Below, piece after piece: positions 9,552 to 29,618 of a stretch of DNA of 64,000 bases. Origin of the DNA: Natronomonas gomsonensis (GTDB taxonomy: Archaea; Halobacteriota; Halobacteria; Halobacteriales; Haloarculaceae); the NCBI RefSeq assembly GCF_024300825.1, contig NZ_CP101323.1, positions 1,240,001 through 1,304,000 of the forward strand. The letters are read 5' to 3'. Each line of letters begins with the position of its first letter. Within the stretch, counting starts at the first letter, position 1. The notes under the pieces were generated by a model that was given only the letters and a program-made list of their open reading frames with translations, searched no databases and was not told where the DNA came from. Position numbers and translations under genes: made by a program.

Positions 9552-11036
9552 ATGTCAGGACGCACCTCGAAACCGACGGTCGGAGCACTCCCGGACACGG
9601 CGGTGGAATCACCGTTCGTGCCCGTTGCACTAACGTGGCTCGTGTGGTCGCTGTTCGCTGCGAGTATCGCCGTCCTCATCGCCCGAATCCGGCTCGGCGG
9701 CGCCTGGGAGATTCCCGGCGTGGTCGCCATCGACGGTCTGACCGTTCTCATGTGGGTGGTGGTCACGTTCTTTAGCGGAATCGTTCACAGTTACTCGCGC
9801 CGCTACATGGCTGGTAGCGCCCACGAAACCGGCTTCTTCCTCGCCGTGTTCGGCTTCACGGCTGCCGTGATGGGCCTCGTCGCGGCCGACCACATCGCGC
9901 TGTTCTGGCTGCTCTGGCTGGCGATGGGCCTGCTGATGGCGAACCTCATCGGTACCGTCGACGGCTGGACGCAGGCACGGGCCGCCGCGAGCGTCGCCCG
10001 CAAGTACTTCCTCGCAAGCAGCGCGCTCCTCGGCGTCGCACTGACAGCGCTGTGGTGGACGACCGACGCGACGACGGCCTCCGGTATCGCCGCGGCCGCC
10101 GACAGCCTCGGCGGGCCGGTGTGGCTCGTCGCCGCGGCCGCACTCGTCTTCGCAGCGATGATTCAGTCCGCCCTCGTCCCGTTCCACGGCTGGCTGCTCT
10201 CCTCGATGACCGCCCCGACGCCCGCCTCGGCGCTGATGCACGCCGGGTTCGTCAACGCGGGCGGCATCCTGTTGACCCGTTTCGCACCGGTCGTCACCGT
10301 CGACACCACACTCATGCTCGGTATCGTGGCCGTCGGCGCGGCGAGTGCCCTGCTCGGAAAACTGCTCAAGGCCGTCCAGCCGGACGTCAAGAGCGAACTG
10401 GGCTGCTCGACGGTCGGACAGATGGGCTTTATGATTATGCAGGCTGGTCTCGGCTTCTTCGGCGCCGCCATCACCCACCTCATCCTGCACGGCTTCTACA
10501 AGGCGTATCACTTCCTCGGTTCGGGGGGGCAGGTCGAACACGCCAGCCCGACTGAGAGCGAACCCACCGGGATGAACGTCGCAGGCACAGCCGCCGTCCT
10601 GATGACCGGACTGGCAGGTGGTGCGTTGTTCGCTCTCCTCACGGGGAAGGGCACGAGCGTCGACAGCGGACTGCTGCTCGTGTTGTTCGTCGTGCTCACG
10701 ACGCTGCATGCGGCCCGCAGCGCCGTCCAGCACACACCCCTGTCGGCGGCGGCTCGCTACGTCGCGGTCCCGCTGGTGTTCATTCCGGCCATCACCGTCT
10801 ACGCACTCGTCTACCTGGCTATTTCGAGTGTCCTCTCCGGGCTTCCGCTCGTCTCGGCCCCGACCGAGCTGAGTGCGCTCCACGCGCTCGTCGCCGTCGT
10901 CTTCCTCGCGGTCTACGTCGCGATAGAGACCGGCGCCCACGAGCGAAGCCAGCGCCTCTACGTCGCGTTGTTGAACGCCAGCCAACCCGCTTCCAGTACC
11001 GTGCTAACCGCCACGGAGGACTACAATGAGTACTGA
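9552..11036 (+). CDS. dabB: DabB, membrane subunit of a dissolved inorganic carbon transporter (NuoL-like)
   Basis: A 494-residue polytopic protein of the proton-conducting subunit family shared with complex I NuoL and MrpA. Family features include 'ALMHAGFVNAGGILLTRF' and 'SELGCSTVGQMGFMIMQAG', with Lys and His residues in membrane segments. It is not in a nuo or mrp operon. It is directly followed, with an 11-bp overlap, by the DUF2309-type dabA gene, and this pairing defines the DAB inorganic-carbon pump. In studied bacteria the complex couples cation flow to vectorial CO2 hydration. The function here rests on the pairing and family, not on haloarchaeal data. Confidence 0.88.
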   Translation: MSGRTSKPTVGALPDTAVESPFVPVALTWLVWSLFAASIAVLIARIRLGGAWEIPGVVAIDGLTVLMWVVVTFFSGIVHSYSRRYMAGSAHETGFFLAVFGFTAAVMGLVAADHIALFWLLWLAMGLLMANLIGTVDGWTQARAAASVARKYFLASSALLGVALTALWWTTDATTASGIAAAADSLGGPVWLVAAAALVFAAMIQSALVPFHGWLLSSMTAPTPASALMHAGFVNAGGILLTRFAPVVTVDTTLMLGIVAVGAASALLGKLLKAVQPDVKSELGCSTVGQMGFMIMQAGLGFFGAAITHLILHGFYKAYHFLGSGGQVEHASPTESEPTGMNVAGTAAVLMTGLAGGALFALLTGKGTSVDSGLLLVLFVVLTTLHAARSAVQHTPLSAAARYVAVPLVFIPAITVYALVYLAISSVLSGLPLVSAPTELSALHALVAVVFLAVYVAIETGAHERSQRLYVALLNASQPASSTVLTATEDYNEY

Positions 11037-14472: not shown

Positions 14473-15855
14473 TCAGTGGTCGTGGCTTGTCACCTGTGGG
14501 CTTTGACCGGCAAACGCCGTCGGATTCTCCTCGAACCGTCGCTTGCAGGCACTAGAGCAGAAGTAGTACGTCGTTCCCTCGTGAGACGCGCTCGGCCCAT
14601 CATCGTCGGTCCGCATTCCACAGACGGGGTCGCGGTACTGGCCGGGCGCACCGAGGCCACGGCGGTACACGTACAGGAGAAACCCGGAGAGTCCGAAGGC
14701 GATGAGGTTGAGGTAGAACGTGTAGTTGAGTTCGAAGTACGTCTGTTCGGTCGCCGTCTCCCCACCGGCCAAATCGGGAACGATACCGAGTGCGTCGAAC
14801 AGCAACTCCATGAGAAAGCCGGTGAACGCCATCGTCACGAAGAAGACGCCGAGGATGTACAGCATGATTTTCCAGCCGTAGTACTTCCGGTAGACGTTCA
14901 ACACGGGAATCGTGATGAGGTCGGCATAGACGAACGCGATGACGCCGGCGAAGCTAATTCCACCACCCCACAGCGCAACGGCGAAGGGGACGTTGCCCAT
15001 ACTGCCGACGAAACTGATGACGGCGATGGCGACACCCATAATCGCGTTCTCGGCGGTCACGAGCAGGCCGTCGCCCTGAATGAACAGGGTGTTCCAGACC
15101 CACTGGGGAACGAAGACGATGACGAACCCGGAGATGAGAAAGCCCGCGATGACGTCCTTCCAAATCATCGACCACTCCTTGCGATACTGGTTTGCGACCT
15201 TGTACCAGCCACCCCACGACAGCAGTTCGTCGCGCCACCCGCCGCTGCTCGATGTCTCCTGGAGATAGGTCTCCATACAGCCTTCCGAGCAGAACTGCAG
15301 CGTTTCACCCCCGTCAGTCGTGAGCGTGTACTCCTTTTTGCCTTCCATCCCGCAGGTTGGGTCCTCGGTAACACCAGCCTCACGGTCGCGTTCGTTGAGT
15401 GTCTGTCTGACCTCACCGAAGAGGTTCTCGGGGAGCGTAAGGTGGACGATGACGGCCATGACGGCGATGAGAATGAGGCCGCCGAGCAGTTCGGCGAGGA
15501 GGAACTCCCAGCCCAGCAGAATCAGAATCATCAACCCGAGTTCGACGATGAGGTTCGTCGACGCGAACATGAACGCCAGAAAGTTCACCGCGTGAGCACC
15601 TTTCTTGAACAGACCCTTCCCGATAGCGACGGCACCGAAACTACACCCACTGCTTGCCGCCCCGAATGCGGTTGCCTTGGTGAGGCCGCCCAGGTCGCCA
15701 TCACCGAGAACCTTCGCCATTCGCTCCTTGGAGACGTAAACCTGGACGAGACTCGTAACCGTGAGGCCCATGATGATTGCCCACGCCGCCGTCCAGAGAA
15801 ATCCGACCCCGATGCGGAGGGCTTCGCGGACTCCATCGAGTACCGTCGCCTGCAT
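14473..15855 (-). CDS. Permease of the ArsP/UPF0718 family with two YHS/TRASH metal-binding domains
   Basis: The ATG at 15855 gives 460 aa; the frame is open to 15969 but the extra 38 residues lack a plausible N-terminus. Two membrane bundles are present, with the family motif GAASSGCSFGAVAIGKG near residue 65 and 'VGSMGNVPFAVALWGGG' in the second half. A Cys-rich YHS/TRASH-like module lies between the bundles (about 165-197, DPTCGM ... FCSEGC). A second sits at the C-terminus (about 408-450, DPVCGM ... FCSSACKRRF). The bundles resemble permeases that export organo-arsenicals or unknown solutes; the YHS modules suggest a soft-metal or metalloid link. Substrate unproven. Confidence 0.85.
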   Translation of the reverse strand: MQATVLDGVREALRIGVGFLWTAAWAIIMGLTVTSLVQVYVSKERMAKVLGDGDLGGLTKATAFGAASSGCSFGAVAIGKGLFKKGAHAVNFLAFMFASTNLIVELGLMILILLGWEFLLAELLGGLILIAVMAVIVHLTLPENLFGEVRQTLNERDREAGVTEDPTCGMEGKKEYTLTTDGGETLQFCSEGCMETYLQETSSSGGWRDELLSWGGWYKVANQYRKEWSMIWKDVIAGFLISGFVIVFVPQWVWNTLFIQGDGLLVTAENAIMGVAIAVISFVGSMGNVPFAVALWGGGISFAGVIAFVYADLITIPVLNVYRKYYGWKIMLYILGVFFVTMAFTGFLMELLFDALGIVPDLAGGETATEQTYFELNYTFYLNLIAFGLSGFLLYVYRRGLGAPGQYRDPVCGMRTDDDGPSASHEGTTYYFCSSACKRRFEENPTAFAGQSPQVTSHDH

Positions 15856-16073
15856 AGATGTATCATCGTAGGGGTCATCTAATTCAGTTGCCCCTAGGAG
15901 ACCGCGGCTCAGAGAGCACCTCCACCACGGATTTGCGGACTGAAAGGCCCGGATTTCAAAGAATTCCAAAGCGACCTCACAGGAAACGTCGCTCAGCCGC
16001 TACGTATCAGTATTTTGTTAATTGAGGCTACCGTCTTTCACCGTTCCGTGGCTCGCCGATTCTCTGTCCGTAT

Positions 16074-17045: not shown

Positions 17046-20000
17046 TCAGATTTCGAACTCGAATCGTGCCCCACCGTCAGTACCCTCCGTGACGGACACG
17101 CTCCAGCCGTGTGCCTTCGCGATATCGGCTACAATCGAGAGGCCGAAGCCGGTTCCGCCCTCCGTCGACGTGACGCCGTGGTCGAAGACCTTCGTTCGGT
17201 TCTCCGGTGGAATCCCCTTGCCGTCGTCTTCGACGTAGAAGCCATCGCCGCCATCGAGTTTCCCGACGGTGATGGTGACGTCGGAACCGCCGTGTTCGAC
17301 TGCATTCCGAAAGAGGTTCTCGAAGAGTTGTGTCAGACGCCCCCCATCAGCAGTCACGGTCTGGATCTCATCGGCAACGGTCAGCGTTGCCTCAGCGGTA
17401 TCGACGTACCCCCACGCCTCCGTCGTTACTGTTCTGAGGTCGACCTCTCCCGTGTCCGTAACTATCGATTCGCCGCGTGCAAGCGTCAGGAGGTCGCGGA
17501 TGAGTCGCTCCATGCGGTCGTGTGCCGACTCGATTCGCTCCAGATGGTCGTGGTCGCCCGTTTCCTCGACGATTTCGAGAAATCCCTTGGCGACCGAAAG
17601 CGGGTTCCGGAGGTCGTGGGCGACGACACTGGCGAACTCATCGAGCCGTTCGTTCTGCCGCTGGAGTTCCGCTTCCCGACTCGAGCGGGCGAATGCCGCC
17701 TCGACGGTCGCACCGAGTATCTGGAACAAATCGATATCCGTATCCGAGAATTGCTGTTCGTGGGACGCACCGACTCCGATGAGTCCGAACTCACCCAAGG
17801 GGACGAACAGACCACGTTGGAGGTCCACGTCGGACTCCGAAAGCGCCGTCTTACTCCGAATATCGTCGTATACACGCATTTCGGAGGCCTCGAAGGCGTC
17901 CCATGCAAGACTCTCTCCGGGCTGTAGCCGCGGCAATTCCCCGAGTATCTCACCTGTACGCTCACTGGCAGTCAGTGGGACGAGAGCCTCGCTTTGGCCG
18001 GAATATTCCCAGATACCAGTGAGTTCGAATCCGAGAATCTCGACAGCTGCCTTGACAGCGATATCGCCGACTTCTTCGTTCGACTGTGCGCCGCTGAGTC
18101 GCTGGGCGGTCCCCTGAAGCGAGCGGAGTTTCGTCTCCAGTTGTTTCTGGTCGGTAATGTCCTCTAAGACCGCGAGTATGCTCGTTATTTCTCCATTCGC
18201 GTCGGTAATCGGGGCGACCGACAGGAGCAAGTCCAGTTCAGTTCCGTCTTTCCTTTTCCGTTTTATCTCTTGGCTACGAATCCGTTCGCCGTTCAGGGCT
18301 CGCTCTCGATGTGATGTGAACTCGTCCTGTTTGTCTTCGGGTACTATCGGATTGAACTCGCCAAGGACTTCCGCCCGCGACCAACCGAACATTTTCTCGG
18401 CCTCATCGTTCCATCGGGTGACGTTGCCGTCAGTGTCGATTTCCATCACGGTGAGGGGTGTGGCTTCGATGAGGGATTCCAACCGCTGGTTCGTCGTCTC
18501 GAGGTCGTGTTCTCGATTGACCTGTTCGGTCACGTTCCGAGCGATGCCGACGATTCGGACGGTTTCGCCGTCAACGATGACTGGCGCGAGACTCGTCTCC
18601 CAGAACCGTGCATCCGCAGCGATATCTAACTCCTCGCGATAGGAAATCGGCCCGCCCTGCTCGACGCAGCGACGGTAATTCACTTCGATTTTCCCACCCC
18701 GTTCCGCACCGAATACCTCTCGCGGTGTCTGCCCCAGGACCTCCTCAGTCGTGAGTCCCGTCTGTGTTTCGTATCCGGGACTGAGTCGGGCGAACTCGAA
18801 TCGGGGGTCATCACCCGTTGTATCGACATCGAGTAAGAATATCGCATCCCCAGAGGTCTCAAGCAGTGCCTCGTATTCCTCCGCGAGTTCTTGATATTCC
18901 CGTTCTTGGGCTGTTCGCTCCGTCACATCTTGAAATACGCCTCGAAGAACGGGCGTATCGTGTCGTCGGCTGTCGACACGCTCGCCCCACGCCCGCACGT
19001 TACGAGTTTCACCGTCGGCTCGAATCAATCGGAGGTCGAGGTCGTAGGGCTCCCCGTCCTCGATTACTTGGTTGACTGCTGCGGTAATCGTTCCGCGGTC
19101 GTCAGGATGATAAAACTCGATAGCATCCTCCAGAGAGGGTTCGTAGTCGTCACCGACGCCGTGAATCCGACGGACACCATCGGACCACTCGAGGTCGCCC
19201 GTCGACGAGAAGTACTCCCAGACGCCGATGTCTGCGATATCCTGTGCATGTTCGAAGAGGAAATCGCGCCGTTCGAGTTTCGCTCGGTCCACACTTCGTG
19301 TTACCTCGGCACTCACGAGTTCCGATAGCAGTTCGACAAACGTTCGCTCGAACGCCCCGAAGGAGTCCGAGCGGGTGGTCGGACTGGAGAAGTTGACCGT
19401 CCCGTAGCGGTCGTCGTTTACGACGAGCGGCACGCCGATGTACGATTCCAGCTCGAATTCAAGGTAGGCCGGATGGGCCTGTTTCCCGTCGGCGACGGCG
19501 TCGGTGAACGAACAGACCGTATCGCTTTCTATGACCTCCTCACAGTATGTCGATTCGAGGTCGAACGTGTCTCCGGTTTCGATATCGGAATCCGGCGCGT
19601 GAACCGCACGAACCGTGTAGTCGCCGTCGTGGATGTGTGAGACGATTCCGATTTCCAGCCCCAGAGTCCGACAGCCGACTTCCAGCAGTTCCCGAAGGCG
19701 AGTATCGGTGGAGACGCTGCTTTCGGCCATGATGCCCTGGAGTTCCCGGAGTGCATCGCGCTCTCGTTGTAATTGTCGTTTGATGTCGCTTTGTTCCGTG
19801 ACATCCCGGGCGACGACGAGCACTTGTCGACTTCTGCCGCTCCGAAACGGCGTAAAGCGCACGTCGAACGTCCGCTCTCCACGACCAGTTTCGATGTCGA
19901 GTTGCAGGTCCGAATCGTACGGCTCGGTTACGCCCCCATCACTCTCCACCTCATCAAGCGTCGATTCGACTGCGTTCCGGAATCGCTCTGCGTTGGGGGC

Positions 20001-20945
20001 AGTAACGCGGTCACCCACGACCGCTTCGAGGGGTTGTCCTTCGAGTTGCGTCGACTGACCACCACCGACGAGCCGTCGGGAGGCCGCATTCGTAAACTGG
20101 ACGATACCCGCTTCGTCGACGACGAACACGATATCGTGGATGTTCTGCAGAATCGTTTCACTGCGTTGTAGCTGTATGTCTTGCTGACGCTCGGCTGTAA
20201 TTTCCCGTGAAAAGACGGTCAGACCGTTATCGTCGGGGAACACCCGTATCTCGACCCAGTAATCGAGCGGGGGGCCGAGACGCTGCTCGAACGACGCCGG
20301 TTCACCGGTCTCCATTGCGGTTCGATATCTGTCTTCGAGTTCGGTACCGACAATCGAGGGGAATTCCTCCCAGAGGATGCCTCCGACGACGGCATCGCGG
20401 TCGCAGCCGACACGTTCGGCCATTTTTTCGTTTAGGTACTCGATGCGCCACTCCTCGTCGACGGCGTAAATCGCGTCAGTCGCGCGTTCGAGCGTCCGCT
20501 GGAAGCGGTCGGACATCCGCTCGGCGAACGCTTCTTTGCGGGCCGCCGCAACGAGGGTCCGAATGCGGCGTGCGAGTAACTCGAAGTTGTCCTGTCTCGC
20601 GTCGACAGGGATGTAATCGGAGACGTCCGCCTGCATCGCTTCACTCGCGATCCGTTCGCTCCCACGACCGGTAAATAGGATAGTCGGAAGGTCGTACTGT
20701 TCGGCTCGGATTCGTTTCAAGAAATCGATGCCGGTACCCTCGGGCAGCGAATAGGCGGTCACCACACAGTCGATTGGAGACGTCGAAAGCTGTTCGAAGG
20801 CCGCTTCCGGAGTTTCGACGGTCGTAACTTCGAGCACCGACGAGGCGTTCAGAAGCTTCGTCTCTGCCAATTCGGCAAAATCGGTGTCGTCGTTCACATA
20901 CAGAACGTGAATAGCCTCGGAATCCCCGTCATCTGCATGACCCAT
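17046..20945 (-). CDS. Giant hybrid sensor histidine kinase: degenerate receiver, five PAS, two GAF, HisKA-HATPase
   Basis: Numbering from the ATG at 20945 (1299 aa), chosen because a TATA-like box lies about 28 bp upstream; in-frame ATGs at 20951 and 20975 are alternatives. Order: receiver about 12-130, PAS about 148-255 and 262-383, GAF about 405-550, PAS about 561-680, 688-805 and 816-935, GAF about 945-1085, HisKA with the phospho-His in VVAHDLRNP (about 1110), and HATPase with N-box LFRNAVEH, DDGKGIPP and GTGFGLSIV. In the receiver the acidic patch 'VNDD' is present, but the position of the phospho-acceptor Asp reads Ala (VVTAYSLPEG). It has no membrane segment, so cytosolic sensing is likely. 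The RR-HEAT-GT2 operon lies just upstream, on the same strand. Confidence 0.92.
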   Translation of the reverse strand: MGHADDGDSEAIHVLYVNDDTDFAELAETKLLNASSVLEVTTVETPEAAFEQLSTSPIDCVVTAYSLPEGTGIDFLKRIRAEQYDLPTILFTGRGSERIASEAMQADVSDYIPVDARQDNFELLARRIRTLVAAARKEAFAERMSDRFQRTLERATDAIYAVDEEWRIEYLNEKMAERVGCDRDAVVGGILWEEFPSIVGTELEDRYRTAMETGEPASFEQRLGPPLDYWVEIRVFPDDNGLTVFSREITAERQQDIQLQRSETILQNIHDIVFVVDEAGIVQFTNAASRRLVGGGQSTQLEGQPLEAVVGDRVTAPNAERFRNAVESTLDEVESDGGVTEPYDSDLQLDIETGRGERTFDVRFTPFRSGRSRQVLVVARDVTEQSDIKRQLQRERDALRELQGIMAESSVSTDTRLRELLEVGCRTLGLEIGIVSHIHDGDYTVRAVHAPDSDIETGDTFDLESTYCEEVIESDTVCSFTDAVADGKQAHPAYLEFELESYIGVPLVVNDDRYGTVNFSSPTTRSDSFGAFERTFVELLSELVSAEVTRSVDRAKLERRDFLFEHAQDIADIGVWEYFSSTGDLEWSDGVRRIHGVGDDYEPSLEDAIEFYHPDDRGTITAAVNQVIEDGEPYDLDLRLIRADGETRNVRAWGERVDSRRHDTPVLRGVFQDVTERTAQEREYQELAEEYEALLETSGDAIFLLDVDTTGDDPRFEFARLSPGYETQTGLTTEEVLGQTPREVFGAERGGKIEVNYRRCVEQGGPISYREELDIAADARFWETSLAPVIVDGETVRIVGIARNVTEQVNREHDLETTNQRLESLIEATPLTVMEIDTDGNVTRWNDEAEKMFGWSRAEVLGEFNPIVPEDKQDEFTSHRERALNGERIRSQEIKRKRKDGTELDLLLSVAPITDANGEITSILAVLEDITDQKQLETKLRSLQGTAQRLSGAQSNEEVGDIAVKAAVEILGFELTGIWEYSGQSEALVPLTASERTGEILGELPRLQPGESLAWDAFEASEMRVYDDIRSKTALSESDVDLQRGLFVPLGEFGLIGVGASHEQQFSDTDIDLFQILGATVEAAFARSSREAELQRQNERLDEFASVVAHDLRNPLSVAKGFLEIVEETGDHDHLERIESAHDRMERLIRDLLTLARGESIVTDTGEVDLRTVTTEAWGYVDTAEATLTVADEIQTVTADGGRLTQLFENLFRNAVEHGGSDVTITVGKLDGGDGFYVEDDGKGIPPENRTKVFDHGVTSTEGGTGFGLSIVADIAKAHGWSVSVTEGTDGGARFEFEI

Positions 20946-20967
20946 TACCATAACTAGGCGGTGCGGT

Positions 20968-20977
20968 CTTATCAATC
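20968..20977 (-). promoter_or_regulatory. TATA-like box for the giant kinase gene
   Basis: Minus-strand string attgataag, centred about 28 bp before the ATG at 20945. Supports this start as leaderless. Confidence 0.4.
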
Positions 20978-21041: not shown

Positions 21042-22451
21042 TCAGTCGGAGTCGAACCCCGAGCGCTGCATCTCGCCCCACGACGTGTCCCCGCGCAGGT
21101 ATTCATAGAGACCGCGCCACGCGATTAGCGTCTTCCACTGTCGGAAGCCGAAGTTTTCGAGGATGCCATACCCCAACAGACGGAGGACCTGCTTCGGGCG
21201 GTCGTACCGCCTGAAACTCCAGACTTCGCTGAGAATCCCGAACCAGGACAGAAACACGCCGAATCCGACCGTCAGCCCGAAATACAGGAGGACGAACGAC
21301 GCGTCGGCGGCCCCGATGAGGAACGCCAGCGGAACGAGTACGTATCCGAACCCCTCGACGAGCGGTCCAAGCACCTCAGCGAGCAGGAAGGCCGGGTACC
21401 CGAACACGCCGGGCGACCCGTATCGTCGCCTGCCAATCATCTTCCGATGGCGAGCCATCGTATCGAGGAGGCCCCGATACCAGCGGCGTCGCTGTCGGCT
21501 GAACGTGGCGGGTGATTCCGGTACCTCCGTCCAGACGACGGGTTCGGGGACGAATTCCACGTTGTACGCTCTGTCCTGTTCCCGGAGGTATCGGTGTAGC
21601 CGAAGCGTCAACTCGAAGTCCTCGGTTATGCTTTCGGTCTCGTAGCCTCCGACTTCCCGGACGAGGTCGGTCCGAAAGACGCCGAATGCGCCCGATATCA
21701 ACATCAGGGCGTTCAGCCGGTCGAGACCCAATCGACCCGAGTAGAAGGCCCGCAAGTACTCCATCGTCTGGAGACCGGCGAGACGATTATCGGGGAGGTT
21801 CACCGACTTGATTGTGCCGTTCTCAATCGTACATCCGTTTGCGACGCGGATGGTCCCACCGGTCGCGACGGTCTCCTCCGGTCGTTCCAAAAACGGTTCG
21901 ACCGCCTGCAAAAGCCCATCCCTGTCGATAATCGAATCGGCGTCGATTGTACAGAAAAGCGGCTGCTCGGCCAGCCAGATACCGGCGTTGACCGCGTCAG
22001 CACGCCCCCCGTTTTCCTTATCGACGACCCGAAGTCCGGGCGCGTCTTCGGAGCGATACACCGCTTCAATCGGTTCGCTCGGGATTTCGAACGGGACGTC
22101 CGCGTCTATCGGGTGGAGGTCGAACGCCGAACGAAGCCGAGAGAGCGTCTCGTCATCCGACCCGTCGTTGACGACCACGATTTCGAGTTCGGGATAGTTG
22201 AGATTCAACAGTGACTGAACGCTTTCGACGATGACTGCTTCCTCGTTGTATGCGGGAACGACGACGGTCACCCCCGGGAAGAACGGGGAAGAAAACCGCT
22301 GATACATCGTTCCTGCGGCTTGCCGTTTCAGGTCCGAACGGAGTTCGAACAGGGCGGCGATGTGGACGGTCAGATACATCCCGTTGACCAACAGGTAATA
22401 CCCCAGAACGAACCACCCGATGACGAGCAACGCCTCGGCGATGGACGTCAT
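21042..22451 (-). CDS. Processive family 2 glycosyltransferase, membrane-bound
   Basis: A 469-residue protein with one or two N-terminal membrane segments, a cytosolic GT-A domain, and three to four C-terminal membrane segments. Catalytic motifs of processive GT2 enzymes are all seen: PAYNE near 66, VVNDGS (Asp96), the DAD motif (CTIDADS, 170-172), TED (276-278) and the QxxRW-type QRRRW (320-324). This layout is shared by cellulose, hyaluronan and poly-GlcNAc synthases, so it probably makes and extrudes a polysaccharide. No PilZ domain is seen. Its start overlaps the HEAT-repeat gene by 4 bp, and that gene overlaps the response regulator, giving one coupled operon. Confidence 0.92.
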   Translation of the reverse strand: MTSIAEALLVIGWFVLGYYLLVNGMYLTVHIAALFELRSDLKRQAAGTMYQRFSSPFFPGVTVVVPAYNEEAVIVESVQSLLNLNYPELEIVVVNDGSDDETLSRLRSAFDLHPIDADVPFEIPSEPIEAVYRSEDAPGLRVVDKENGGRADAVNAGIWLAEQPLFCTIDADSIIDRDGLLQAVEPFLERPEETVATGGTIRVANGCTIENGTIKSVNLPDNRLAGLQTMEYLRAFYSGRLGLDRLNALMLISGAFGVFRTDLVREVGGYETESITEDFELTLRLHRYLREQDRAYNVEFVPEPVVWTEVPESPATFSRQRRRWYRGLLDTMARHRKMIGRRRYGSPGVFGYPAFLLAEVLGPLVEGFGYVLVPLAFLIGAADASFVLLYFGLTVGFGVFLSWFGILSEVWSFRRYDRPKQVLRLLGYGILENFGFRQWKTLIAWRGLYEYLRGDTSWGEMQRSGFDSD

Positions 22452-23539
22452 TGTTCCGTCTCGCTTCGTGTCGGTTCAGTCGAGGCGAGAACCCAGTCTC
22501 GCGCTGCCGAACTCGCAGGGGTGAGTTCGCTCTCGGGGATGGACGTCGCCCGCTCGCCGAGGGCGGAAATCGCATCGATTGCGGCCCGCGTGTTCGATTC
22601 CGACCGGAGGGCGTTTCGGAGCGCGTTCACCGACGCCTCGTCATCCCAACTTCCGAGCATCTGATACACCGCCTGTCGGACAGGTGGGGAGTCGTCCGTT
22701 CGTACTTGCTCGATTTCGATAGCGGAGCGAACGCCGTCGTGCCAGCCGTACCCGACGAGTGCGTTCGCTGCCGCCACCCGGACGTTCGGTGACTCACTCA
22801 CGAAGAGAAAGCCAATCCAATCGAGAGGCGTATCCGGACTCGCCGGGCCAGCGGTACCGATTACCCGCAGGACCTGAATGAGTCGCGACTCGGACCACTC
22901 GTGGTAGGACTCCTTGGTGCGTGTGAACAACAGGTCTGGTGAGAGTTTGTTGAGTTGATACAGTGTGTCCATGCCCAGTACCGACAGTGGCCCCGTACCG
23001 CGCAGTAATAGCTCGGTCCCCTCTTCGGTCGCGTTCGCGCGGTCCTGCTCGTAAAGCACCCGAGCGGCCGCCGCTCTCGTTTCCGGATGGCCCCCACACG
23101 TCGCTTCGAGCGTCTCGATGGTGACATCGATATCGAGGCGAGCAATCCAGTGAAGTGCCCGGCGGCGTTCGAGGTGGTCTCCCTCGTGGAGTTTCCGTCG
23201 GGCTTTCTCGCCGATTCCGAGCGCGTAGCCGAGTTGCTGGAGCGACTCCCGGTCGCCGCCACGTATTCGGTGTAGATATTCCTCTAACAGGTCTTCTGCG
23301 ACACGTCGCTCAGTCCCACTCAGGCCGCCGACCCACGCTTCCCACTCGGGGTCCGTCGCCTCCATTCGGCTGAGAAGTGCCTGCCGGACCTGTGGCCGTA
23401 CGTCCGCAAGTCGGTTATCCCGTCGCGCCGACAGAACCGACCGGGCGACGGTCGATGTGCCGACGACGGCCAGTAGACCCGTTATGAAAGCGCCGATGAG
23501 AGATAGTGTCTCGAAGGAAACCGCCGAGGCGTTACTCAT
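22448..23539 (-). CDS. Membrane-anchored HEAT-repeat protein
   Basis: A 363-residue protein with one N-terminal membrane segment (about 10-30, 'LSLIGAFITGLLAVVG') and a cytosolic alpha-solenoid. Repeated helical pairs are visible, e.g. 'RRRALHWIARLDIDVTIETL', 'ETRAAAARVLYEQDR', 'NVRVAAANALVGYGWHDGV' and 'PPVRQAVYQMLGSWDDEASV', which match HEAT or PBS-lyase-type repeats. Such solenoids bind partner proteins. It is translationally coupled on both sides (4-bp overlaps) to the response regulator and the GT2 synthase, so a scaffold that links the regulator to the synthase at the membrane is the simplest inference. Confidence 0.85.
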   Translation of the reverse strand: MSNASAVSFETLSLIGAFITGLLAVVGTSTVARSVLSARRDNRLADVRPQVRQALLSRMEATDPEWEAWVGGLSGTERRVAEDLLEEYLHRIRGGDRESLQQLGYALGIGEKARRKLHEGDHLERRRALHWIARLDIDVTIETLEATCGGHPETRAAAARVLYEQDRANATEEGTELLLRGTGPLSVLGMDTLYQLNKLSPDLLFTRTKESYHEWSESRLIQVLRVIGTAGPASPDTPLDWIGFLFVSESPNVRVAAANALVGYGWHDGVRSAIEIEQVRTDDSPPVRQAVYQMLGSWDDEASVNALRNALRSESNTRAAIDAISALGERATSIPESELTPASSAARDWVLASTEPTRSETEQ

Positions 23540-23904
23540 CCAAGCACTCGCTGAATTCGGGCGACAAGTTCGTTCCCCGAGAACGGTTTCGTCATGTAGT
23601 CGGTCGCTCCGGCGTCGAGTGCGCGAACGATGTCGTCTTCTCTCCCGCGTGACGTGAGCATGATGACTTCGACATCGTCGAAGCGTTCGTCATCTCGCAT
23701 CCGGTCGAGAATGCGATACCCGCTCAGTCCGGGCATCATAACGTCGAGTACCATCAAATCAGGAAGGTCGTCCGCGTTCTCGTCAAGATAGCGCCAACAC
23801 TCCTCCCCGTCGGCGACGGCCGTAACGTCGTACCCGTTTTGTAATTTGAATCTGAGGAGTTCTCGCATTTCCTCGTCATCATCAGCGATCAAGATAGAAT
23901 ACAT
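23536..23904 (-). CDS. Single-domain response regulator (receiver only)
   Basis: A 122-residue CheY-like receiver with a complete active site: acidic pair ADDDEE at about 7-12, phospho-acceptor Asp54 in MVLDVMMPG, the conserved Thr/Ser in MLTSRG and Lys in YMTKPFSG. No output domain is present, so it must act by protein-protein contact. It is the first gene of the operon with the HEAT and GT2 genes and overlaps the former by 4 bp. A TATA-like string (taatataac on the minus strand) lies about 40 bp upstream. Candidate kinases are the giant hybrid kinase downstream and the membrane kinase divergently upstream. Confidence 0.93.
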   Translation of the reverse strand: MYSILIADDDEEMRELLRFKLQNGYDVTAVADGEECWRYLDENADDLPDLMVLDVMMPGLSGYRILDRMRDDERFDDVEVIMLTSRGREDDIVRALDAGATDYMTKPFSGNELVARIQRVLG

Positions 23905-24140: not shown

Positions 24141-25199
24141 ATGGTGTTTACGACCGAAGCAATCCACCCTCGACATGGGTTTTACGCGTTAGGGTGGCTC
24201 TGTTTCGGGTTCGGAATCGGCCACGGCCTGCTCGAAGCCAACGGATTGGAATCGGTCCTTGAAATGCTCATAATCGTCGGAGTGTCCACAATCGTGTTCC
24301 ATACAGGCTACGGACTTCACGAGCGACCGATTTCACAAGCCGGCCAGTGGCGAGCGTTACTGGAGGGTGTGGTCATAGCCGGGTCGTTTACACTCCTCGC
24401 GGTTGCCGTCTGGGTGACGTGGTCGCTGGACGGAATCAATACCGAACTGAGCTTTCTCCTTGCGTTTGCGGCCTCACTCGGTGCAGCAGTCGGTACTCGG
24501 GGGAGTCTCTATGCGGTCCAATCGAACGAGCAACTGGCCGAGACGGACGACCTCACCAAACTGCTCCGAATCAATCAGCGAGTCCTCCGACACAATCTTC
24601 GGAACGAACTCTCAGTCGCGCTTGGACACCTCGAAAACATCGAGAACGCTGCCGAAACGGACGACTTCGCCCACGACATCGACCTGATTCGCGACCACCT
24701 CGAGGCGCTTCTCGAAACCACCACTCGGACTCGGAAGATCGTTGCCATCTGGGACGACACCGATTCGACCACACTTGAACTGACATCGATAATCGAGAGT
24801 CAGATACAGCAGGTTCGAGAGGACCACCCAACGGGAACGCTCTCCTCGAGGCTGCCGGCGGAGTGTCGGGTGACCGCCCACTCGGCACTCCCACTCGCGA
24901 TTCGTGAGGCACTGACGAACGCAATCGAACACAACTCGGCCGATGTTTCGGTTACCGTGACGGTTGAGTGTCACGACGAGTCGGTCCACCTCACAATCGC
25001 AGACACGGGGACTGGAATCCCGGAAACCGACCGAGAGGCGATAACTCTTCCCGAAGAGACGCCGCTCACCCACACCCGTGGACTCGGACTGTGGATTCTC
25101 TATTGGACAGTCCGAATGTCTGATGGCACGGTCGCCTTCGAGAACAACGAGCCAAGCGGGACCGTCGTTCGCATTACGCTCCCGACCGCATCGTCGTAA
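24141..25199 (+). CDS. Membrane sensor histidine kinase
   Basis: A 352-residue kinase. About four membrane segments fall within residues 12-125, with almost no extracytoplasmic domain, resembling haloarchaeal four-helix sensor kinases. The phospho-His is His151 in RVLRHNLRNELS. The HATPase domain has the N-box LTNAIEHN, the D-box ADTGTGIP and a G-box RGLGLWI. It is transcribed away from the response-regulator operon across a 236-bp gap. The proximity suggests, without proving, that it phosphorylates that receiver. Confidence 0.9.
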   Translation: MVFTTEAIHPRHGFYALGWLCFGFGIGHGLLEANGLESVLEMLIIVGVSTIVFHTGYGLHERPISQAGQWRALLEGVVIAGSFTLLAVAVWVTWSLDGINTELSFLLAFAASLGAAVGTRGSLYAVQSNEQLAETDDLTKLLRINQRVLRHNLRNELSVALGHLENIENAAETDDFAHDIDLIRDHLEALLETTTRTRKIVAIWDDTDSTTLELTSIIESQIQQVREDHPTGTLSSRLPAECRVTAHSALPLAIREALTNAIEHNSADVSVTVTVECHDESVHLTIADTGTGIPETDREAITLPEETPLTHTRGLGLWILYWTVRMSDGTVAFENNEPSGTVVRITLPTASS

Positions 25200-25535: not shown

Positions 25536-28500
25536 ATGGTCGAAGAGCAGGCCGTCTCGCTTTTCGTCAATCTCGCTGCGACCGGAATCACTGCGGGGTC
25601 TGGGGTGGCGTCACGGAAGGCACGGGACGTGATTCGGCAACGGGTCCATCGAGAGGACCTCGAACATGTGGCAACCGAGTTCAGCAAATCACTGCGGCAG
25701 TCGATTGCCGACGTGGATGCACGGACGGAGACGAACGAACTCACAGAAGTCTCCGACAACTGGGAGGCCGTCATCGCCGAACTCGCGGGGCTGCCGGGGG
25801 ACACCAGCCAGCCGGTCGAAAAGCAACGAGAGCGAGACCAACTCGAAGTTCTGTTCCGGTCCGATAACGGGACGGACGCAGTACAGGAAATCGTCGAGGC
25901 AATCGCGACGGCGAAAGGCTTCGATATCGCAAACACTCCACAACTGCGGGAGGCACTGACCGACGCCGTCGCCGAGGCGTACCGTGAGGCGCTGGTCGAC
26001 TTCCAGCACCGCATCGCTGGAACTGACCTCGCTGACGTGTTCCAACAAGAGTTAGGACTGCATCTCTCGGACCAACTGGAGGGCGCCCAGCAACGACTGA
26101 CGACACTAACCGAAATCGGCGAGCAGTTGCTCACACAGGACGCTCGCAACGAGGGGTTCCGCCAGCTGTCACCCGCGTACTTCCAGCGGGCACCGGTCAC
26201 CCCCGAGTTGTCTTGGCGGACGACGTTCAGTCTCGCAGATGTCGCGGCAGATATCCCGGCACAGCGGACAGGTATCGAAGCGGACACTGCCAGTAGCGAA
26301 CTGTTGGATTCGCTCGAAACAGGGACGAACCGACTGGTCATCGGTCGGGCCGGCAGCGGGAAAAGCACGCTCTGCAAGCAGGTCGCAATCGAGTGGTATC
26401 GCGATGACGAGACCGGGCCGGTGTTCTACCGTGACACAGACCGCGCGGGGAGGCGATTCGAGAGTCGCGACGCCCTTCGACGGGCTATCGAGCAGGGACA
26501 GGGTCACGCCCTCGTTGTCGTTGAAGATGTCGTGCGTTCGGACGCGAGAGCCGTACTGCGGGTGGTGGAGGAATACGAAGACGACCCGGATGTGAGCTTC
26601 CTTTTGGACGCTCGCGTCTCGGAACTGGACGATGAGATGGGGGCACGTGCCTACGACGAATCCATGACACGCCGGACGCGTGCGATTATCGACGACGTGA
26701 CGTCATACACCCTGCCGGTGGTTTCAAAAGCAGACGTACAGCGGGTCGTCGATGCGTTCGAGGACGCCACCGGACGAACGGTCTCACAGTCGGTCACTGA
26801 CCTATACGAGACGGTCCGCAGCGAGGATGTCGAAGGCTTCGGCGCGTTCATGCTCCTGGCATTTCACTTGCCACTGGGCATCGATTCGATAGAGAACGAC
26901 GGCCGGGCAGCGACCGGCTTGGAGGGACACGTTCGGTCGCGGTACGAAACTATCGAACGGCCGGCCGATGAGCAGTCTCTCCGGGACCTCACACAGTTCA
27001 ATCCCAACCTACTGGCAGACGTAGCCGTGATGGTGAACCTGTTGAACGCCAGTGGAATCGGCATCCATCCCGAGTTGGTCCACGCACTCGGGTACGAGTA
27101 CGGACACGATATCGACACCCACGATGAGATTGCCGCGATTCGCGAGGCGCTGACGGGGTGGTTCCTCTATCCGGTCGAGACGGGGGAGCAAACACGCGCA
27201 ACCCATCCCCTGTGGTCGACGCTGTATCTGCGTGTGCTGGCCCAAGACCATGCTGACCAGCAGGCCGACAGCCGACGGCGGAGTCGCTCTGAGCCACGGA
27301 CCGGTCGGTGTCTGGAGGCCCTGTTTCGGCTCTTCGATGAACTCAACCACCGCGAATCGACGGCGCGGGAGTTTCCGCAGTCATCGGTGGTGGCGGAGAT
27401 TGAAACCCACTCGACCGAGACGGCCGACGACTACGTCAGGTCGGTGATGGACCTCAGCCGTGAATGGCCGATTTTGGGTCCACTCGTTGGAACATCGGCG
27501 ACGGCTCGCTATGCGTTGCCGGAGTGTTGTCCGGACAGCACCCGACAACAGACCCGCCTCAGTCGGGCGTGGGCACACCTCCAGAACGGCTCGATAGATA
27601 GCGCAAAATCGGAGTACGAGGCGGTCCTAGAGCAGTCACAGAACCTCACCGAAAGAGCCAAGGTTTCCGCTCTTGCGGGACTCGGAACCATCGCCCACCA
27701 ACGGGGCGACCCGGAGAAGGCAAAAGAGATTCACGAGGAGCGTCTCGATATTTGCCAATCGGCCGGGTACCCCGTCGGTGAAGCCGGTGCTTTGGACAGC
27801 CTCGGGAACATCTCACTCGTGCTCGGAGAGTATCAGACAGCCGAAAAGCACTACCAACAAAGCCTCGAACTGGTCCAGGACATCGGATTCTCCCTCGGGG
27901 AGGCACAGAGCCTCAACAATCTGGGCGCACTCGCACAGGAGATGCGCGAGTACCGGAGGGCCCGAGAATACCACCAGCAAAGTCTCGACATCTATCGTGA
28001 GTCTGGGTCCCGTCGAATGCAGGCCCGCGTCATCACCGCACTCGGAAGCGTTGCCCACTCTCTCGGAGAGTTTGAGTCGGCCCGAGAGTACCACCAGCAA
28101 AGCCTCGCCATCTGTCGTGACATCGGTGACCGCTTGGGTGAAGCGAAAAGTATCGAAGGGCTCGGAACAGTGAGTGAACAGGCCGGGGACCGCCAGCAAG
28201 CCAAGCAATACTACGAACGAAGTCTCGAACTATTCGATGCGATTGATGACCCTCGCGGGAAAGCCTCTAGTCTCACAAACCTCGGCGATATCGCCAAGGA
28301 GCGCGAGAACATCGAGCAAGCCGAAGCGTACTACCGGGAGAGTCTGTCTCTCTGTCGTGAATCCGGTGACCGCCGAGGTGAGGCGGGAACCCTCAACAGC
28401 CTCGGTATTATCGCGCGATCACGCGGGGACCTCGAGGCAGCAAATGAGTACTATCACGAGAGTCTCGAAATCGTCCGTGACATCAATAAGCGCGGAGACG

Positions 28501-29618
28501 AGGCGATGGTACTCACCAATCTCGGAAATCTCGCGCAAGAACGCGGGAATCTTGAAGAAGCTACGTCCTACCACGAACAGCGACTCGACATCTACCGCGA
28601 TCTCGACGACAGCCGAGAGGTAGCGGCGAGTCTTAGCAATCTGGGCGATATTGCACACAGTCGTGGGGAGTTCGAAACAGCCACTGAGTACTACCAGCAG
28701 AGCCTCGATATTCTCCGTGACCTCGAGGACCGCAAGGCCGAAGGGGCACTCCTTGAGCGTCTCGGTGAGATTGCCGGAGACGGTGGCCAGTTTGTGCGTG
28801 CCAGACGCTACTACCAAGAGAGTCTCGAAATTTTCCAGGACATCGGTACCCCAGCCGATACGGTATCCATTCGAGTCCCCCTCGGGACCCTCGCGCTTCT
28901 CTTGGGCGAGTACCACCAAGCGAGAACACATACCGAACAGAGTCTTGAAATCGCGAGAGATCTCGACCACGCTCCTGTAGAGAGTCTCTGCCTCAATCTT
29001 CTCGGGGAAGTCGCCCACCAACTGGGCGACTACGAGGCGGCGACCGAATATCTCAACCGGAGTCTGGACATCGCTCGAGAGATCGGACACAGCCAGGGAG
29101 AAGCCAGAGTGCTCAAAACGCTTGGAGAGGTGGCTCGGAGCCAACAGGAGTACGAGGACGCCACGGAGCACTACATACAGAGTCTCAACAGCTTTCGAGA
29201 CCTCGACGATAAACGGAACCAAGCCGAGGTGCTGAGGGATTTGGGAACGGCGCTGCTACTGTGGGGTCGTCTCACCGACGCCCGGACTCGCTTCGAGGAG
29301 AGCCTCGATATCGACGTGGAAGTCGAGAATCCTCGGCAAGAGGCTCTGTATCGGGGTACATTCGCGGCTATCGATATCGCTGAAGGAGAGACTGAGACCG
29401 CACGAAACAAACGGGATGAAGCGCTTTCGTCGCTTCGCGAGATGGACCTCCTCCCTGATGAACTCCGAGTGCTCCGTCTCCACGTCCAAATCGAACGCGA
29501 GTATGGCGACGATGAGGTCGCCAGAACGCTCTACCAGCGGGCTCGTGGTCGAATCGAAGATTCGAGCCTGCCATTGGACCACCACCGCGAACGACTCGAC
29601 GATGTCTCTCCACAGTGA
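25536..29618 (+). CDS. Large P-loop (NACHT/STAND-like) NTPase with about 17 TPR-like repeats
   Basis: A 1360-residue protein. Residues 1-210 form a helical N-terminal domain I do not recognise. An NTPase domain follows with Walker A GRAGSGKST (270-278), a Walker-B-like HALVVVEDV (324-332) and 'VSFLLDARVSE' near 353, in the style of NACHT/STAND ATPases. A helical region spans about 400-670. From about 671 to 1350 come repeats in an exact 40-residue register; the best-conserved run is 711-1270 (14 copies), each near 'LGxIAxxxGExExAxEYYxxSLEI'. These are extended TPRs of the kinesin-light-chain/LGN type. STAND proteins of this layout act as ligand-triggered switches, including in defence and regulation; the role here is not known. 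Neighbours are kinases and a decayed gene. Confidence 0.85.
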   Translation: MVEEQAVSLFVNLAATGITAGSGVASRKARDVIRQRVHREDLEHVATEFSKSLRQSIADVDARTETNELTEVSDNWEAVIAELAGLPGDTSQPVEKQRERDQLEVLFRSDNGTDAVQEIVEAIATAKGFDIANTPQLREALTDAVAEAYREALVDFQHRIAGTDLADVFQQELGLHLSDQLEGAQQRLTTLTEIGEQLLTQDARNEGFRQLSPAYFQRAPVTPELSWRTTFSLADVAADIPAQRTGIEADTASSELLDSLETGTNRLVIGRAGSGKSTLCKQVAIEWYRDDETGPVFYRDTDRAGRRFESRDALRRAIEQGQGHALVVVEDVVRSDARAVLRVVEEYEDDPDVSFLLDARVSELDDEMGARAYDESMTRRTRAIIDDVTSYTLPVVSKADVQRVVDAFEDATGRTVSQSVTDLYETVRSEDVEGFGAFMLLAFHLPLGIDSIENDGRAATGLEGHVRSRYETIERPADEQSLRDLTQFNPNLLADVAVMVNLLNASGIGIHPELVHALGYEYGHDIDTHDEIAAIREALTGWFLYPVETGEQTRATHPLWSTLYLRVLAQDHADQQADSRRRSRSEPRTGRCLEALFRLFDELNHRESTAREFPQSSVVAEIETHSTETADDYVRSVMDLSREWPILGPLVGTSATARYALPECCPDSTRQQTRLSRAWAHLQNGSIDSAKSEYEAVLEQSQNLTERAKVSALAGLGTIAHQRGDPEKAKEIHEERLDICQSAGYPVGEAGALDSLGNISLVLGEYQTAEKHYQQSLELVQDIGFSLGEAQSLNNLGALAQEMREYRRAREYHQQSLDIYRESGSRRMQARVITALGSVAHSLGEFESAREYHQQSLAICRDIGDRLGEAKSIEGLGTVSEQAGDRQQAKQYYERSLELFDAIDDPRGKASSLTNLGDIAKERENIEQAEAYYRESLSLCRESGDRRGEAGTLNSLGIIARSRGDLEAANEYYHESLEIVRDINKRGDEAMVLTNLGNLAQERGNLEEATSYHEQRLDIYRDLDDSREVAASLSNLGDIAHSRGEFETATEYYQQSLDILRDLEDRKAEGALLERLGEIAGDGGQFVRARRYYQESLEIFQDIGTPADTVSIRVPLGTLALLLGEYHQARTHTEQSLEIARDLDHAPVESLCLNLLGEVAHQLGDYEAATEYLNRSLDIAREIGHSQGEARVLKTLGEVARSQQEYEDATEHYIQSLNSFRDLDDKRNQAEVLRDLGTALLLWGRLTDARTRFEESLDIDVEVENPRQEALYRGTFAAIDIAEGETETARNKRDEALSSLREMDLLPDELRVLRLHVQIEREYGDDEVARTLYQRARGRIEDSSLPLDHHRERLDDVSPQ
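27666..29345 (+). repeat. 120-bp tandem coding repeats, 14 clear copies
   Basis: Within the NTPase-TPR gene the DNA repeats with a 120-bp period (40 codons) and no insertions or deletions between units. Copies differ in many synonymous and some non-synonymous positions, so the array is old and under selection at the protein level. Two or three weaker units extend it on both sides. Confidence 0.8.

Follow-up and report, generated by a model that had tools for sequence, protein, structure and literature searches.

How could the production of an exopolysaccharide be switched after translation in an organism in which the domains typical of the best-known signalling for such control cannot be detected? 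This question is raised by an operon of three genes in Natronomonas gomsonensis, encoding a stand-alone receiver, a HEAT-repeat protein and a family 2 glycosyltransferase (GT2), which lies in a window of 64,000 nucleotides (contig 1, positions 1240001-1304000, of a 3.65 Mb genome). Post-translational control of synthase-dependent polysaccharides is known mainly through cyclic di-GMP (c-di-GMP) (PMC8461298, PMC12802240). The domains and conservation of the genes described here make it fairly likely that the operon encodes a system for synthase-dependent exopolysaccharide production whose control is two-component-based, post-translational and independent of c-di-GMP. Such receiver-HEAT-GT2 control of exopolysaccharide by a sensor kinase may be widespread and is apparently undescribed: no description of the triplet was found in the open-access literature, including papers on seemingly close systems, subscription papers being outside the scope of the search.

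Three overlapping genes on the minus strand

The genes are arranged on the minus strand in the order receiver, HEAT protein, GT2, and overlap by 4 bp at both junctions (23536-23539 and 22448-22451; Table 1). A first-pass annotation had described these overlaps, along with an intact output-less receiver, a membrane-anchored HEAT solenoid and a synthase carrying the full set of motifs, and each of these descriptions is borne out. The receiver matches Pfam Response_reg over the entire model (102 bits, model positions 1-111 of 111), which is the sole domain in its 122 amino acids. Residues D8-D10, D54, T84, Y103 and K106 are all kept, with Asp54 as the phosphoacceptor, and alignments showed the protein to be conserved in orthologues.

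The HEAT protein (HEAT_2, 45.5 bits, cut-off 27.7) contains one N-terminal hydrophobic segment (approximately residues 11-31), and an arginine-rich stretch follows. Its N-terminal region is conserved, and the HEAT repeats make up the C-terminal part. By the positive-inside rule, an arginine-rich stretch behind a hydrophobic segment places the following part of a protein in the cytoplasm; because this arrangement is found at the N-terminus, the HEAT repeats are probably located on the cytoplasmic side of the membrane.

The GT2 protein matches Pfam Glyco_tranf_2_3 (91 bits) and has an N-terminal transmembrane (TM) helix, a catalytic domain and C-terminal TM helices, without a PilZ domain. All motifs characteristic of membrane-embedded processive GT2 enzymes (D, DxD, TED and Q/RxxRW) are present, as D96 (NDGSDD), D170/D172 (DAD), T276-E277-D278 and R319-W324 (RQRRRW). 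These are invariant or nearly so across orthologues, RQR.RW being invariant. In addition to the TM helices, a fold like that of BcsA and hyaluronan synthases was predicted in an AlphaFold2 model of moderate quality (predicted local distance difference test [pLDDT] 72). A Foldseek search with this model returned the archaeal mannosyltransferase 6yv7 as the best match, with cellulose and hyaluronan synthases next.

The enzyme did not reach the NCBIfam equivalog cut-offs for PgaC, CelA or NodC. The best match was TIGR03937 (PgaC), at 126.2 bits against a curated cut-off of 422.3, and an assignment as a PgaC/IcaA-type poly-N-acetylglucosamine synthase was rejected on this score. An assignment as a BcsA cellulose synthase was rejected as well, since the C-terminal PilZ domain is absent and the TIGR03030 (CelA) cut-off was missed (63 bits against 699). 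Likenesses to these systems exist. PgaC/IcaA with PgaD/IcaD shares the GT2 with flanking TM helices, the adjacent gene for a membrane partner and the best NCBIfam match, and genes that may supply UDP-N-acetylglucosamine (UDP-GlcNAc) lie near some triplet loci; here, however, the partner is a HEAT solenoid, a receiver is part of the operon, and no deacetylase gene was recognized adjacent to it. BcsA-BcsB resembles the system in its catalytic motifs and, as far as the model indicates, in its fold and synthase-dependent export, but differs in that our GT2 lacks PilZ and that no BcsB was found. The hyaluronan synthases of Chlorella virus and Xenopus are the closest processive fold neighbours besides BcsA in the Foldseek results (about 15% identity); we know of no receiver or HEAT partner for these enzymes.

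Occurrence of the gene set and the genes linked to it

The first-pass annotation had proposed a search for conserved triplets, and the triplet indeed proved to be conserved far beyond the host, in other Halobacteria and in at least 16 bacterial phyla. When the 292 genomes were searched with the HEAT protein and with GT2, full-length relatives of both were found in the identical set of 49 genomes, at adjacent coordinates, a co-occurrence that exceeds chance. All other HEAT hits scored weakly and were repeats of a generic kind; at E-values up to 1e-60, no GT lacking a HEAT gene was retrieved. Receiver, HEAT and GT follow one another in this order in each of the 30 short loci, while the first receiver search identified a receiver in 39 of 41 wider loci; one of the other two (L070) carries a receiver-like open reading frame (ORF) immediately upstream. 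In a single genome (G060, L042:8421-10030), GT2 is broken into two ORFs in overlapping frames, likely a frameshift or sequencing error.

The system is missing from seven further genomes of the host genus, and the most similar GT (88% identity) is found in a different family, so that the distribution is patchy and horizontal movement of the operon is likely. Plasmid-borne copies occur in Salinirubellus, Haloarcula and Halosolutus. The 45 haloarchaeal GTs form one group in a tree (SH-aLRT 99; root position unknown), which is consistent with a single entry of the system into this class.

Beyond the haloarchaea, we scanned one genome for each of 84,980 species, seeding the search with the GT alignment. 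This yielded 80 mainly bacterial GT loci, 73 of them outside the Halobacteria. A gene of the HEAT family abuts the GT in 75 of the 80 loci by profile, and several of the five others also have an ORF with a TM segment and a solenoid beside the GT. A same-strand receiver lies at most 3.3 kb upstream of the GT in 64 loci. Counted per 1-kb bin, 62% of loci had a receiver 1-2 kb upstream and 47% had one 2-3 kb upstream, against approximately 2-11% at 4-9 kb and a few percent per kb in the other parts of the flanks. All 64 receiver-position proteins matched Response_reg, all 56 HEAT-position proteins in the cross-phylum alignment matched HEAT_2, and complete trios of receiver, HEAT protein and GT came from the 16 phyla mentioned above.

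The HEAT alignment has no conserved stretch from which such a scan could be seeded. Full-length matches to the haloarchaeal profile were confined to the Halobacteria in a search across the phylum, the remainder being generic HEAT repeats; outside the phylum the family was too diverged for this profile and was first located by gene position. Still, the haloarchaeal and bacterial families, which have no members in common, are colinear over 313 columns that include the N-terminal region (hhalign probability 99.75). Protein distances of receiver, HEAT protein and GT correlate with one another, at rho 0.71-0.84 in haloarchaea and 0.43-0.58 in bacteria.

Several further genes accompany the triplet in relatives, and these differ by lineage, with an outer-membrane barrel in diderms and a hydrolase-like gene in monoderms and haloarchaea. 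In diderm loci, 19 of 23 genes lying between receiver and HEAT encode tetratricopeptide repeats (TPRs) and 16 of the 23 encode a YaiO barrel, providing a dedicated envelope export partner. The independently annotated plasmid pMESCI01 of Mesorhizobium ciceri combines a kinase, two receivers, a YaiO barrel, HEAT, GT2 and Hpt. YaiO barrels occupy this position in most diderm loci examined, but none is present in the window; haloarchaea have no outer membrane. In a Halorubrum-type group and one Natronorubrum-type locus, the triplet has genes for GlmS and archaeal GlmU-type enzymes on its flanks; no such genes lie beside the triplet within the window.

GT2 is linked to the gene of a secreted or lipoprotein-like protein of 700-1100 amino acids in the Bacillota, in certain other bacteria and in many haloarchaea (Table 1). 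The motifs EW.P and EFGVP are conserved in this family, and its members are predicted to combine a TIM-barrel part resembling glycoside hydrolase (GH) clan GH-A with a CBM9-like C-terminal stretch. A search of predicted folds with one member (low-confidence model, pLDDT 63) returned GH157/GH2/GH5-type TIM barrels, while comparison with solved structures gave nothing significant, and the haloarchaeal members that were scanned had no match in Pfam or NCBIfam. Judged from the motifs and this model, the proteins resemble clan GH-A hydrolases, with no finer class assigned, and are a candidate new glycoside hydrolase family. One haloarchaeal genome carries the gene in three tandem copies (L047:9373-16001), and a profile search found no copy in the host genome.

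Because GlmS, archaeal GlmU, the GH-A-like hydrolase and the YaiO barrel are all linked to the triplet in relatives, they support an exported polysaccharide as its product. The common denominator of these genes would be a polymer that leaves through the envelope and is possibly made from UDP-GlcNAc.

Proposed control of the synthase

Receivers without an output domain act via protein contact or within a relay. As the receiver of this operon has neither a DNA-binding nor an enzymatic output, it would have to bind a protein or serve a relay, and the membrane-anchored HEAT solenoid is the best candidate for a docking platform. Since HEAT and GT2 are its recurring neighbours, the simplest route would lead from the phosphorylated receiver via HEAT to GT2. 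We propose that a kinase, most likely the PAS/GAF hybrid kinase encoded downstream, phosphorylates the receiver at Asp54, and that the HEAT protein relays the state of the receiver to GT2, altering its assembly or catalytic gating. GT2 would polymerize a nucleotide sugar, plausibly UDP-GlcNAc, and the chain would be extruded via its own TM helices.

A precedent is found in Myxococcus xanthus, where phosphorylated EpsW activates EpsZ post-translationally (PMC12802240). The likeness lies in a phosphorylated receiver that acts on an exopolysaccharide enzyme after translation, and a stand-alone receiver with intact phosphorylation residues is a feature shared with this type of control. However, EpsZ belongs to the large monotopic phosphoglycosyl transferases and serves a Wzx/Wzy pathway, whereas the enzyme here is a GT2 of the processive type and a HEAT gene is placed between receiver and enzyme. 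The operon may work like EpsW-EpsZ, though it is not a member of that type.

Sensor kinases had been noted on both sides of the operon. Both are present, but only the downstream kinase on the same strand is conserved with the triplet. It starts within approximately 90 bp of GT2 (TTG at 20975, with an in-frame alternative ATG at 20951), and homologues lie downstream of the GT in three related loci (L036, L048 and L063; 74, 68 and 60% identity, respectively). On these grounds, it is the probable cognate kinase of the receiver. The divergent kinase has no strong counterpart in 40 related loci and was set aside as the cognate kinase, as it is not conserved with the triplet; it is possible as a second input only. 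In L040, L046 and L050, the gene that overlaps the receiver gene or lies directly upstream of it encodes a kinase.

We give an even chance to a wider reading, in which the triplet represents a so far undescribed, phylum-spanning class of polysaccharide secretion systems. Here, HEAT would enable direct gating of a processive synthase by the phosphorylated receiver, without c-di-GMP; the system would have spread once to the haloarchaea, and diguanylate cyclase modules would have been gained or lost in some bacterial lineages. The module points to a second widespread solution for the control of such synthases, one also available to organisms that lack c-di-GMP, among them N. gomsonensis. It offers a defined partner protein in the HEAT adaptor, with Asp54 as a residue that can be tested. 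For halophilic archaea, it is a candidate operon for a matrix polysaccharide, and the triplet could serve as a genomic marker to find undescribed exopolysaccharides across many phyla.

A number of points weigh against control of GT2 by the receiver through HEAT. No receiver-HEAT or HEAT-GT fusion protein was found among the 80 loci. A same-strand receiver is absent from 16 of these by the strict criterion (several are on short contigs), and since some HEAT-GT loci have no such receiver nearby, it is not strictly required. The correlated distances owe part of their strength to common ancestry. Linkage to GlmS/GlmU, which comes mostly from one genus-level group and one other family, could be local synteny, and the GT2 model is of moderate quality. 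A diguanylate cyclase domain is present in some bacterial versions, so that the receiver itself may not act as the signal in every case. Finally, while genes, domains, conservation and linked-gene context were observed, it is from these that we infer the receiver-HEAT and other contacts, the route of phosphorylation, the substrate and polymer, and the direction of control.

HEAT could have a different role, as a structural co-synthase constitutively needed to assemble or position GT2 (and the barrel in diderms), with the receiver setting only the place or time of assembly of the complex, for instance at a cell pole, instead of gating catalysis. HEAT is paired with the GT more tightly than the receiver is (75 against 64 of the 80 loci), and the HEAT-GT pair is retained without an adjacent receiver in some loci, such as the TPR-HEAT-GT locus of Deinococcus radiophilus. 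The receiver is still found far above background, however, and in an overlapping or closely packed gene set at most loci, so that we regard this role as possible but rather unlikely.

It is improbable that GT2 instead glycosylates lipids or proteins (as in N- or O-glycosylation), with the receiver controlling surface glycosylation. The mannosyltransferase 6yv7 as best structural match and the missed cut-offs for PgaC, CelA and NodC would fit such an activity, but the full processive motif set with its invariant RQR.RW, the cellulose and hyaluronan synthases that follow in structure, and the barrel and hydrolase partners in relatives all speak for a polymer.

We consider it quite improbable, too, that the signal was c-di-GMP ancestrally and is so in general, with a diguanylate cyclase under the control of the receiver-position protein, the nucleotide bound by HEAT or the GT, and stand-alone receivers as reduced forms. 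The first-pass annotation had remarked on the absence of PilZ and GGDEF domains. For the host this extends to the whole genome, where a profile search detected neither, while both profiles matched control genomes; c-di-GMP control of the synthase in N. gomsonensis is unlikely. It does not extend to all relatives, as 13 of the 64 receiver-position proteins carry a GGDEF domain and 12 an Hpt domain, and the GG[DE]E[FY] motif is intact in five of the former. The majority, however, have no GGDEF domain, and several of those domains have lost the motif. Given that GGDEF occurs in only 13 of 64 loci and that neither GGDEF nor PilZ is detectable in the host, the receiver rather than c-di-GMP is the constant element. 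Among proteins of the Hpt-REC-GGDEF-REC type at the receiver position, the motif is intact in L098, L099, L101, L114 and L145, and has decayed in L152, L096, L116 and L120, from which it is absent.

It is very improbable that the receiver serves some unrelated phosphorelay or transcriptional circuit and merely shares a transcript with HEAT-GT: the host genome does have 18 receiver-domain matches and stand-alone receivers can serve relays, but the linkage recurs across haloarchaea and 16 bacterial phyla, and the divergence of the proteins is correlated.

Feature coordinates and neighbouring genes

Table 1. Coordinates of the operon, the flanking kinases and the hydrolase-like genes linked to GT2 in related loci
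Feature	Coordinates	Strand	Basis or remark
Receiver (stand-alone response regulator lacking an output domain), 122 aa	23536-23904	-	Pfam Response_reg
HEAT-repeat protein, 363 aa	22448-23539	-	HEAT_2 and family alignment
GT2 synthase, 469 aa	21042-22451	-	Pfam Glyco_tranf_2_3, motifs, AlphaFold2 model
REC-PAS/GAF-HisKA-HATPase hybrid kinase	17046-20975	-	Pfam; downstream of GT2
Divergent histidine kinase, N-terminal hydrophobic region	24141-25199	+	HATPase_c
GT2-linked hydrolase-like gene	L084:5847-7970		
GT2-linked hydrolase-like gene	L085:6245-8404		
GT2-linked hydrolase-like gene	L097:11474-13699		
GT2-linked hydrolase-like gene	L103:5066-7240		
GT2-linked hydrolase-like gene	L123:11415-13571		
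GT2-linked hydrolase-like gene	L124:4088-6796		
GT2-linked hydrolase-like gene	L145:11408-14695		
GT2-linked hydrolase-like gene	L076:12845-15172		

Between positions 10000 and 34000 of the window, the GC content falls from approximately 0.65 to 0.56-0.61 from about 13 kb onward, around the operon; this low-GC stretch is possibly an acquired region. A neighbouring gene on the plus strand (25536-29618) encodes a protein of 1360 amino acids with a P-loop domain of the nSTAND_NTPase5 type and many TPRs, a STAND-TPR architecture of a kind known from signalling or defence proteins. On the minus strand, the gene at 14473-15969 encodes an ArsP_1-type permease that carries a YHS/TRASH metal-binding domain at its C-terminus.
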